This document shows, one piece after another, positions 6,115 to 35,635 of a stretch of DNA of 42,204 nucleotides. The stretch is from a virus. Position 1 is the stretch's first letter; each line of letters starts with the position of its first letter. The position numbers and the translations under genes were made by a program. The notes under the pieces were generated by a model. It was not told the origin of the DNA. It ran no database searches and saw only the letters and a list, made by a program, of their open reading frames with translations. The stretch lies in the IMG/VR virus record IMGVR_UViG_3300045051_000101, positions 1 through 42,204 of that record; one strand, given 5' to 3'.

Positions 6115-7224
6115 TTATAACTCCGCAGATGCCGCAATAACATCCGTGTTTGTCAATCTACTTGTTACAACAGCGTTGGTTGTTAAACCACTAAACCCTG
6201 AAATGTTTGTCCAAATAGCGTTCGTTCCGGCGGTTGTATTTGCCAATGCTGGGCTTGTTGCGTTGTAGTCTCCTCCCGGGCTTCTGATAGACAGAGTCCC
6301 AGACCTAATAGAACACGTAGGCGACGCTCTCATTTGCTGGTAGAAGAACACCGTCACCGCAATACTGGAGGATGTTTCCGCAAACCCCGTAAGAGTTTGC
6401 CCTCCGATGTTTTGATAGTACCGCTGACACATAATCAGCTCACGCCCGTAGTCCCTGCGCTCAAACGGAGTAGCTACGGAGCCTGCTTCAAGCTGGACTC
6501 CGGTGATGTAGAAGGTGGCTCCGTTGGTGGAAATCCACTGTGTCTGCGCGGAGGTTTGGAAGTAAGTTCCAGACTGCCACGAACCAGCGGTAGTGGTGAA
6601 GCTGCTGCCGCCACCAAGCGTAAACCAGAGGCGCAACCCAATACTGTTATCGGTAGCAAGAGCAGACGCAGTGTCACCACTCACGGTAATGGTCTTTTGC
6701 TCCCAAGTGTTAGCCGAGTTGATGGTGTACGTACCAACATAACTCTTGGATGCGTTAGTGTTCCCCGCCCAAACACAGTAAGTGCCTGTGATACTGGAAC
6801 GTACCCAAAACGAAATGGTCACAGGAACTGCGCTTGAGGTTCCATAGGCAAAATCAGCTACGTTGAAGCCCTCAATAAACTGCTGGATACCGTAGTAGTC
6901 ACCGGAGGCAAGTGAAGAATCAGCGGTTGTGACGGTCAAGAAAAGGCTGTTTGTAAAACCTGCTCCCGTGGGGACTGTTGTTGACCGCTGAACACTAAAG
7001 CCACCTCCTCCAGTCAAAGCTGGAACCCATCGGTCAAGGGTATAAGTGCCGTTTACAGCAGTCACACTCGCCCCAGCGTTCCTCTGGTCAATCCGCATGT
7101 CGCCGTTGATGATCCTGTTCCTGAACCCTTGCAGGCTCTGAGCAGTAGGAGTCATGCCGTTGATCTGGGCTGTGTTGCCTCCAGAGGCATCAAGATAGAC
7201 ATTTGCTCGTACAGTGCTGGTCAT
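6115..7224 (-). CDS. Tail fibre / receptor-binding protein with NRIINGDMRIDQRN module
   Basis: This 369-residue protein has an N-terminal attachment segment followed by FRNRIINGDMRIDQRNAG near residues 35-52. That signature is found in many phage fibre proteins with a carbohydrate-binding-module-like jelly-roll fold. The following region (SFWVRSS, LWFTLGGGSSF, FYITGVQLEAGSVATPFE) matches the same family. A C-terminal domain begins after REL..CQRYYQ near residue 270. It is one of several fibres encoded in a row. Its ATG overlaps the upstream stop (ATGA). It is probably a host-surface binding protein. Confidence 0.75.
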   Translation of the reverse strand: MTSTVRANVYLDASGGNTAQINGMTPTAQSLQGFRNRIINGDMRIDQRNAGASVTAVNGTYTLDRWVPALTGGGGFSVQRSTTVPTGAGFTNSLFLTVTTADSSLASGDYYGIQQFIEGFNVADFAYGTSSAVPVTISFWVRSSITGTYCVWAGNTNASKSYVGTYTINSANTWEQKTITVSGDTASALATDNSIGLRLWFTLGGGSSFTTTAGSWQSGTYFQTSAQTQWISTNGATFYITGVQLEAGSVATPFERRDYGRELIMCQRYYQNIGGQTLTGFAETSSSIAVTVFFYQQMRASPTCSIRSGTLSIRSPGGDYNATSPALANTTAGTNAIWTNISGFSGLTTNAVVTSRLTNTDVIAASAEL

Positions 7225-34154: not shown

Positions 34155-34405
34155 GTCAAGAACAGTTTTATCAAACGGTTCAAATGGAACAAGAATGGAG
34201 AGAACAGCAAATGAAAACTTGGCTTGAGCAATACATCGACGAAGAGGCAAACACCGAATACTGCCCCTACTGCATGAACCCCCGTGGCGGCAAACGTGTC
34301 TGCTGTGGCGAGGTCCACTTCATGCCATTCAAAGACTTTGACCTGCAAGAGCAGATGGATATTGCCCATCAGGAATGGGAAATGGCACACAAGGAAATGA
34401 AATGA
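34151..34405 (+). CDS. Zinc-ribbon-like small protein
   Basis: This 84-residue protein has a Gln/Glu-rich helical N-terminus. A cysteine cluster CPYCMNPRGGKRVCCG (residues about 38-53) suggests a zinc ribbon, and the C-terminal helix is acidic. It lies directly upstream of the annealing protein and overlaps it as ATGA. Nucleic-acid or protein binding is plausible. Confidence 0.7.
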   Translation: MSQEQFYQTVQMEQEWREQQMKTWLEQYIDEEANTEYCPYCMNPRGGKRVCCGEVHFMPFKDFDLQEQMDIAHQEWEMAHKEMK

Positions 34406-35055
34406 CTATTGCAAAGCTGCTTCAGACCAACGTAAACGAGCATACAGAGAAGAAAAACGGCCTTACATACCTGTCATGGGCCTGGGCCTGGGCGGAGGCT
34501 CTAAAGGCCGATCCTGCGGCTTCTTACAAGGTCGAGACATACGACGAATTAGGTGAAAACGGTCGCCGTCGTACCGTGCCCTACATGAGCATCAACGGCA
34601 CCTGCATGGTGTTCGTGACTGTCACCCTGTTTGGCAAGCCCCTGACATGCCAATTGCCGGTGATGGATTACCGCAACAAGGCCATCCCTGACCCAGACGC
34701 ATTCGCTGTCAATACCGCCATCATGCGCTGCTTGACCAAGGCGCTGTCCCTGCATGGCCTGGGCCTGTACATCTACGCTGGTGAAGATCTGCCAGAAGAA
34801 GGGGAGGTGGCCAAAAAAGGTGATGCCCCCGTCATTACGCCAAGGGGCGGCATTGGTGACGATCTTTCCAGCGAAATCAAAACATACCTTGAGGATCTTG
34901 CAGAAAAGGTTAAAGACCTGATCCAGCAAGAGCGTCCAAAAGAGGCCCTATTCGCCCTGGAAAGCGAAAACCTGGAGGCAGATCAAAAGGTCTGGCTCTT
35001 CAATCAATTGGACTCCAAAGTCCGCTCCGCTCTCAAAAAAGCAAAAGGAAATTAA
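34402..35055 (+). CDS. Sak3-type ssDNA annealing protein (DUF1071)
   Basis: This 217-residue recombinase promotes annealing of complementary single strands. The DUF1071/Sak3 core contains LTYLSWAWAWAEALKADPA, GTCMVFVTVTLFGKPLTCQ and a conserved NKAIPDPDAFAVNTAIMRC, followed by TKALSLHGLGLYIYAGEDLP. The C-terminal third is an acidic helical tail. The start overlaps the zinc-ribbon gene stop (ATGA), and a candidate ssDNA-binding protein follows, which is the usual partnership. Confidence 0.85.
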   Translation: MTIAKLLQTNVNEHTEKKNGLTYLSWAWAWAEALKADPAASYKVETYDELGENGRRRTVPYMSINGTCMVFVTVTLFGKPLTCQLPVMDYRNKAIPDPDAFAVNTAIMRCLTKALSLHGLGLYIYAGEDLPEEGEVAKKGDAPVITPRGGIGDDLSSEIKTYLEDLAEKVKDLIQQERPKEALFALESENLEADQKVWLFNQLDSKVRSALKKAKGN

Positions 35056-35313
35056 ATGAACCAACAATACGATCCCACTAACCGTGGTTCCATGTTCGTC
35101 AACGACAAAAAGACGGAAGAAAAGCACCCTGACTGGAACGGCAGTCTCAACGTCAATGGCGTGGATTACTGGATCTCTGGATGGAAAAAGATGAGCAAGG
35201 GAAACAAGCCTTTCTTGAGCATCTCCATCCGTGAGAAGCAAGAGCAGACCCGGCAGGTCAGCCAGCCGACCAGGAAAGCAAAAGAGGATTTCCCGGACGA
35301 CATCCCCTGGTAA
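35056..35313 (+). CDS. Putative ssDNA-binding-like protein
   Basis: This 85-residue protein (MNQQYDPTNRGSMFVNDKKT) has a compact core (NGSLNVNGVDYWISGWKKM) and an acidic C-terminal tail DFPDDIPW. That tail resembles the SSB C-terminal peptide that binds partner proteins. It starts directly after the annealing protein's stop. I infer a ssDNA-binding or accessory role from the tail and context. Confidence 0.6.
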   Translation: MNQQYDPTNRGSMFVNDKKTEEKHPDWNGSLNVNGVDYWISGWKKMSKGNKPFLSISIREKQEQTRQVSQPTRKAKEDFPDDIPW

Positions 35314-35319
35314 TGATTA

Positions 35320-35390
35320 CGGGCCGAAAGCGGATGCTGGTCAATGGGGGTGTTCACAGCATGCCCGACCAGACGTAGCGAGTAGGCCCA
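35320..35390 (+). ncRNA. Candidate structured RNA element between SSB-like and DUF7303 genes
   Basis: Nested complementary arms are visible: GGGCC (35321-35325) with GGCCC (35385-35389), and inside it CTGGTC (35337-35342) with GACCAG (35367-35372). A competing pairing ATGCT (35334-35338) with AGCAT (35358-35362) is also possible. The loop contains GGGGGTGTTCACAGC. No terminator T-run follows. It could be a cis-regulatory RNA for DUF7303 or a small RNA. The 71-residue gene starts 30 bases after it. Confidence 0.5.
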
Positions 35391-35419
35391 CCTTAACCCA
35401 ACCAAACAAAGGATTTGAA

Positions 35420-35635
35420 ATGTATACCATTGAAAAAAACATTCCCGCACCTGATTCGCGTTCCAAGTACCCCTTCCCTCAAATGGAAGTTGGCGATTCC
35501 TTCTTTGTTCCCGGCAACGAAATCGTCGGCAGCAGGGTTTCTGTGGCCATGAACTACTACAAGAAAAAGAATCCCAAGAAAACGTTTATCAGTCGCAAAA
35601 GCGCTGATGGCATGCGGATCTGGCGCACCAAGTAA
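35420..35635 (+). CDS. DUF7303-like protein
   Basis: This 71-residue protein (MYTIEKNIPAPDSRSKYPFP) contains MEVGDSFFVPGNE and a C-terminal FISRKSADGMRIWRTK. This matches the DUF7303 family of small phage proteins with pattern VGDSFFVP...R....GxRIWR. Its frame is open upstream through the intergenic region, but the ATG with a nearby AAAGG is the best start. The function is unknown. Confidence 0.7.
   Translation: MYTIEKNIPAPDSRSKYPFPQMEVGDSFFVPGNEIVGSRVSVAMNYYKKKNPKKTFISRKSADGMRIWRTK

Follow-up and report, generated by a model that had tools for sequence, protein, structure and literature searches.

The nearest published parallel to the RNA considered here is STAXI (RF01728), a tandem pseudoknot with UUCG tetraloops that occurs in Enterobacteriales near genes for ssDNA-binding and DNA-handling proteins and is suspected to act as RNA rather than DNA (Weinberg et al. 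2010, PMC2864571). Both are SSB-associated structured motifs of unknown function; the present RNA differs in having a loop-E-like frame with exchangeable heads and gives no match to RF01728. The 'Burkholderiales-1' motif has no Rfam number in the table of PMC2864571 and hence lies outside the Rfam comparison. The C4 antisense RNA of P1/P7-like phages (RF01695) is likewise a small phage RNA of the early region. However, C4 RNA pairs with its own transcript, whereas the present heads show no excess of long complementary matches to the flanking parts of their own genomes, and there is no C4 match in the window (the whole stretch of 42,204 nt that was analyzed, IMG/VR record IMGVR_UViG_3300045051_000101). 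Phage tRNA arrays are likewise built of tandem units, 70-90 nt each, that A/U-rich spacers separate, and the likeness extends to an acceptor-like end helix, a 3' ACC, and in some cases real tRNAs alongside. The RNA does not fold as a tRNA, however: ARAGORN detects none in the window, and the fourth base at the 3' end is usually U, giving a consensus of ACCU rather than ACCA in 207 members. Small ribozymes of the hammerhead kind also combine an internal-loop core that does not vary with peripheral loops that differ widely, but there is no ribozyme family match, and cousins without the core keep the frame. Finally, integron attC sites fold into hairpins with a conserved base and variable terminal structure, as this element does; the excess of G-U pairs nevertheless shows that it is RNA, no attC consensus was seen by eye, and there are no cassette genes.

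In the window, 106 nt separate the stop codon of a small SSB-like gene (TAA, 35311-35313) from the ATG of a DUF7303 gene, and the structured RNA occupies most of this interval (Table 1). A preliminary description of this DNA had placed a candidate structured RNA in a gap of about 105 bases here, with nested stems GGGCC/GGCCC and CTGGTC/GACCAG and a G-rich loop; these are present, and the two stems correspond to the covarying helices P1 and P2. Between them lies the internal loop GAAAGCGGAUG / ACGUAGCGAGUA. An ATGCT/AGCAT pairing had also been suggested as a switch; both of its strands are present in the window, but one of them, AGCAT, falls in the hypervariable head, and so the switch cannot be conserved. 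As had been noted, no terminator-like site is found on the + strand here. The SSB-like gene itself gives no Pfam match, but BLAST places it in one cluster together with 17 other genes that precede the RNA in the family, and a member of this cluster (L095) has a match to phrog_7364, annotated as 'single strand DNA binding protein'.

Table 1. Parts of the RNA and its neighbours in the window
Feature	Position	Strand	Basis
Sak-type single-strand annealing protein gene, same operon, upstream	34375..35055	+	Pfam SSAP_Sak, E 1.4e-40
Small ssDNA-binding-protein-like gene; stop 7 nt 5' of P1	35056..35313	+	BLAST cluster
5' flank TTAC; consensus (U/A)3-C ahead of P1	35317..35320	+	composition in 207 members
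Structured RNA, whole	35321..35392	+	
P1, 5' strand GGGCC (partner 35385-35389)	35321..35325	+	inner pairs C-G, G-C, U-G, U-A among relatives
Invariant core, 5' side GAAAGCGGAUG; GAA opposite AGUA, loop-E-like	35326..35336	+	kept in 82 relatives, partly by search design
P2, 5' strand CUGGUC (partner 35367-35372)	35337..35342	+	two-sided changes, 6/7 pairs of helix 3
Exchangeable head (apical domain) AAUGGGGGUGUUCACAGCAUGCCC, 24 nt, G-rich	35343..35366	+	head clustering; swaps between near-identical phages
P2, 3' strand GACCAG	35367..35372	+	covariation in relatives
Invariant core, 3' side ACGUAGCGAGUA	35373..35384	+	conserved in relatives
P1, 3' strand GGCCC	35385..35389	+	covariation in relatives
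Conserved 3' ACC, then a nearly G-free U/A-rich stretch	35390..35392	+	A 71%, C 86%, C 81% in 207 members
DUF7303 gene, downstream neighbour	35420..35635	+	Pfam PF23978, E 5.7e-7

Folded as a single sequence, the RNA of the window is modestly better than its shuffles (z -1.25, with 18 of 200 shuffles as good). Thermodynamics by itself is thus weak support, and it is the comparison with relatives that is decisive. Among 82 relatives, 86% of the cells of P1 and P2 are paired, compared with at most 42% when the partners are slid, and the covariation score of the two helices is reached by none of 500 shuffles. Compensatory changes in relatives, which the preliminary description had named as the test of its RNA, are therefore found. 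A covariance model (R1), built from 82 sequences that include the window's own, scores the window at 71 bits (E 7.8e-17), while the next best place has 10.5 bits; compared with this model, the window has P1, the GAAAGCGGAUG core, P2, the YGCAGCGAGUA core, and the ACC. When a search pattern left P1 free, the innermost P1 pair was C-G in 115 cases, G-C in 73, U-G in 20, and U-A in 7, and the second-innermost was C-G in 116 and G-C in 91. Furthermore, G-U combinations far outnumber A-C combinations: 27 to 6 in P1 pairs 1-4, 73 to 0 at the G-Y pair adjacent to P2, and 38 to 8 in P2 pairs 1-3. Such a skew, which would be unexpected for folded DNA or for an RNA of the opposite strand, argues for function as RNA from the + strand. 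Judged by these sequence comparisons, the conserved element is a structured, noncoding RNA of the + strand. The downstream reading frame is indeed open through the gap, as had been pointed out, but the coding explanation raised by this is ruled out by base-pair compensation together with length differences at the same site that are not multiples of three. For example, the RNA is 73 nt in L099 and 72 nt in L111 between the same flanks, a change that breaks the frame.

The first relative came from phage MW202710 (Manatee Spring), where the RNA (79% over 82 nt) lies between annotated SSB and MazG-like genes. A pattern made of the two core strands matches at least 119 IMG/VR contigs compared with ~10 expected by chance (our estimate), and two further patterns enlarged the collection to at least 229 distinct occurrences. 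The strict frame, a letter-identical 44 nt, is present in 25 IMG/VR contigs, listed in full, and accounts for 10 of the 119 among the matches listed for the two-core-strand pattern. From these two figures, that pattern alone implies ~300 contigs, and a lineage with a G-rich P1 adds others. From these counts, the family extends to several hundred phage contigs of IMG/VR; a few cultured Burkholderiales phages carry it too. These are Bordetella phages IFTN6 and PHB04 and Alcaligenes phage CASP1, the last with a copy that is divergent and matches in part; judged from named records, the hosts are mainly Burkholderiales. A scan of GTDB genomes returned 38 matches against ~60 expected by chance (again our estimate), of which only a few prophage-like loci are real, and the plasmids and E. 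coli genomes searched contain no match to the family. Of 48 large phage records, 46 carry exactly one copy, as does each of the five annotated phage records.

No Rfam 15 family matches the whole window at the gathering threshold or the interval 35200-35480 up to E 10, and none matches the motif in relatives, which agrees with the earlier failure to name a family for it. In addition, a search of the open-access literature, which leaves aside subscription journals and most preprints, turned up no relevant paper that gives the core sequence; one 10-mer of the core appears in two unrelated papers. Within the reach of Rfam and of that search the family is undescribed, so that priority is not certain. 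On a stricter view, this would be a new class of RNA and not a new kind of system.

The constant part can be written as (U/A)3-C-P1-GAA-AGC-GGAUG-P2-head-P2'-(A)Y-GCA-GCG-AGUA-P1'-ACC-U/A-rich, or in short as C-P1-GAA.AGCGGAUG-P2 ... P2'-(A)YGCAGCG.AGUA-P1'-ACC. Its internal loop sets ~20 near-invariant bases between helices that vary freely, an invariance that is partly imposed by the search patterns; CGGAUG is kept, nonetheless, by most of the 93 sequences obtained with a pattern that left CGGAUG free. The GAA that faces AGUA beside a helix is, from its sequence, what we take to be the textbook loop-E (sarcin-ricin) bulged-G arrangement. In CASP1, a helix GAAGC/GCUUC stands in place of the GAA/AGUA joint, and this substitution also supports the inner GC/GC pairs of the frame.

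What the frame carries is far less constant. The apical domain is 20-50 nt long across the family, and the 222 distinct heads in the 229 occurrences fall into ~141 unrelated clusters by local alignment, with the cut-off set at a score reached by none of 3,000 shuffled pairs. Even the contigs with the letter-identical frame have 23 heads in 22 clusters. There are 20 pairs of loci in which both flanks are more than 80% identical, and in 16 of these the heads are unrelated. L099 and L111, which align over 5.1 kb at 96.7%, have flanks of 98.7-100% and a core of 100% identity, but their heads are only 25% identical; the heads of L252 and L296 (flanks 98.7-100%) are 35% identical and those of L059 and L067 (flanks 91-100%) 43%, and values of 25-43% are the chance level for unrelated sequences forced into one alignment. 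Where phages agree at 97-99% in the sequence surrounding the RNA, replacement is confined to the tip. Conversely, one type of head (type A, 17 members) occurs with various flanking genes and in both P1 lineages, as well as on a second kind of neck (L345), and another (type B, five members) occurs in different gene contexts. The larger groups of heads covary within themselves: the type A hairpin is maintained through compensatory changes, and type E consists of two hairpins with compensatory changes in both, which indicates that these heads are maintained structures and not junk. On average, the folding energy of heads is modestly below that of shuffles (mean z -0.88). Among the heads, no universal motif and no Rfam match was found. 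The wholesale replacement of the head on a constant stem suggests a small RNA tool in which pressure from hosts or rivals drives exchange of the working end. To our knowledge, there is no other noncoding RNA family in which a fixed frame bears heads that are exchanged as cassettes between near-identical genomes.

The position of the RNA is also very constant. P1 begins within ~12 nt of a same-strand stop codon (ORFs of at least 30 codons) in 184 of 229 loci, compared with 9.3% of random positions; the spacing from stop to P1 is 4-10 nt in most loci (mode 4-8 nt), and that from P1 to the next ATG is ~7-30 nt in most. Among 98 representatives, ~28-30 of the upstream genes code for SSBs or annealing proteins, which come from unrelated families (phrog_7364-type SSB, 11; DUF669 SSB, 9; Enc34/gp2.5, 4; PF00436, 4), and RecT and Gp157 also occur upstream. 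There is no such excess among the downstream families listed, which are as diverse as DNA polymerase A, primase, Cas4 exonuclease, MazG, HNH, Xis, and DUF7303. Autoregulation of SSB is disfavored, since the upstream genes belong to unrelated SSB/annealing families and to others besides, and since two SSB relatives (L018 and L024) lack the RNA, the gene running straight into the next; the RNA is therefore not an obligate SSB autoregulator. A specific tie to DUF7303 translation, which had been proposed as one option, is disfavored as well, because DUF7303 relatives (L004-L013) have no such RNA ahead of them, and elsewhere the downstream gene differs widely.

Related units also occur in tandem arrays of 2-4, in which the frame is common (P1, GAAAGC, GUGAGUA, ACC) and the GGAUG core is missing. 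In L208 (minus strand, ~6370-6690 of the reverse complement), four tandem units of ~70-80 nt each, with A/U spacers, directly follow an SSB-like gene and differ in core and head. tRNAs adjoin the RNA in Bordetella and Alcaligenes phages and at two prophage-like loci. Adjacency to tRNA is not general, as ARAGORN places a tRNA within 400 nt in only 2 of 229 loci; it is found mainly in a divergent subclass located within clusters of RNA genes that include tRNAs and, in the case of PHB04, a permuted tmRNA.

Taken together, these results have led us to prefer, tentatively, a model in which a constant handle carries an exchangeable structured head, the whole being a modular RNA that acts mainly in trans. 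The handle would comprise P1, the loop-E-like GAA/AGUA joint, the GGAUG/YGCA internal loop, and the 3' ACC. In this model, the RNA would be transcribed with the early replication/recombination operon and would then either be excised or fold into a stable RNA. A constant partner, such as a host or phage protein, would hold the handle, as the constancy of the handle itself implies. The head would bind, decoy, or recruit a molecule that is not the same in all hosts or competing phages; that structured heads are replaced as blocks in otherwise near-identical phages argues that the head meets something variable. Replacement could proceed by recombination through the short identical arms of the handle, possibly performed by the SSAP, RecT, or SSB proteins encoded next door. 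The preliminary description had left the choice between a cis regulator and a small trans-acting RNA undecided. Copy number, tandem arrays, and neighboring tRNAs lean towards trans, and with the unrelated downstream genes they favor action away from the neighbors.

The chief alternative is a cis-acting operon element between stop and start, which would couple translation of the flanking genes or govern the processing or stability of their transcript, for example giving a high output of SSB and a lower output of the gene downstream. We regard this as unlikely on balance, yet as a serious competitor. The position directly behind a stop codon is what would be expected of a 3'UTR element and counts against the trans reading, and the tight spacing to the next ATG and the one-sided enrichment of SSB/annealing genes likewise favor the cis element. 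In addition, the start codon that follows P1 is no more than 12 nt away in 29 of 182 loci, with no Shine-Dalgarno sequence between, so that the RNA lies on the ribosome's landing site; a role in translation in cis accounts for this better than a free trans-acting RNA would. However, nothing is common among the genes downstream, there is a single copy per genome, and units occur in tandem arrays and adjoin tRNAs or terminator-like hairpins. Furthermore, a cis element leaves unexplained why whole heads are replaced between near-identical phages.

It is improbable that the RNA is a self-cleaving ribozyme or ligand-sensing riboswitch, in which catalysis or ligand binding would reside in the invariant loop and the head would serve as a peripheral domain for tertiary contacts with many solutions, as in hammerhead ribozymes. 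The near-invariant loop between variable helices and the structured but sequence-diverse heads would fit such a molecule. Nevertheless, cousins in tandem arrays and similar contexts keep the frame without the GGAUG/YGCA core, a plain helix replaces the GAA/AGUA joint in CASP1, and drift in tertiary contacts would not swap the whole head between phages that are 97-99% identical. The functionally related downstream genes by which a riboswitch is recognized are not seen either, the genes there being diverse and unrelated. A DNA-level element that folds as a single strand (a replication origin, an attC-like recombination site, or a substrate for SSB or annealing proteins) would suit the replication/recombination operons and the cassette-like replacement between constant arms, but is very improbable given that G-T far exceeds A-C on the + strand in the conserved helices, as for RNA and for neither DNA strand, that the attC-type GTTRRRY consensus was not seen by eye, and that there is one element per genome in varied contexts.

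A broader version of the handle-and-head model would be that of a general phage RNA platform, in which one constant handle presents any of hundreds of interchangeable structured heads, each fitted to a particular host factor or defense and serving as decoy, inhibitor, or adaptor. Heads would be traded as cassettes by way of the handle arms, and units would at times be stockpiled in arrays. Such a platform is rather doubtful. If true, it would be an RNA analogue of exchangeable anti-defense genes. Block-wise replacement of the tip, with nearly all the rest of the unit constant, is as expected where diversifying pressure acts on recognition parts. Named head/flank pairs and a few cultured phages allow a direct test of whether RNA modules are employed by phages against host factors or on their behalf.

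Several minor features accompany the family. Some of the genes that lack a Shine-Dalgarno sequence behind P1 (L062, L103, L218, L326, and L356 among the 29 loci, with the ATG 6-12 nt after P1) can be named, and several of this kind are of DNA-polymerase size (~640-650 aa). Cys-rich proteins of 48-50 aa with a signal-peptide-like start are encoded immediately 5' of the RNA in at least 11 loci (L040, L059, L067, L108, L134, L209, L252, L278, L292, L296, and L319). Genes for Acb2/Tad1 and Tad2-like anti-defense proteins adjoin the RNA in two cases each among the 98 upstream representatives, one listed example being L078 (4362-4595). In L015 (3252-3340), behind an SSB gene product 73% identical to that of the window, a different long hairpin, UUUUC-GGGGUGUUG...CAACACCCC-AUC, fills the same slot, as if the slot behind SSB could accept other RNAs. 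In PHB04 (L194), the permuted tmRNA at 2131-2372 (RF04321, 104.5 bits; ARAGORN tag ANDDYIRAAA*) and three tRNAs at 1149, 1300, and 1532 lie upstream of the RNA copy. Finally, six loci of the divergent subclass (L048, L147, L174, L193, L176, and L194) have in common a stretch 3' of the motif, around CGGUGGAAGUCCG...GGAGACGUAACC, which suggests that the motif there may be part of a larger unnamed noncoding RNA.
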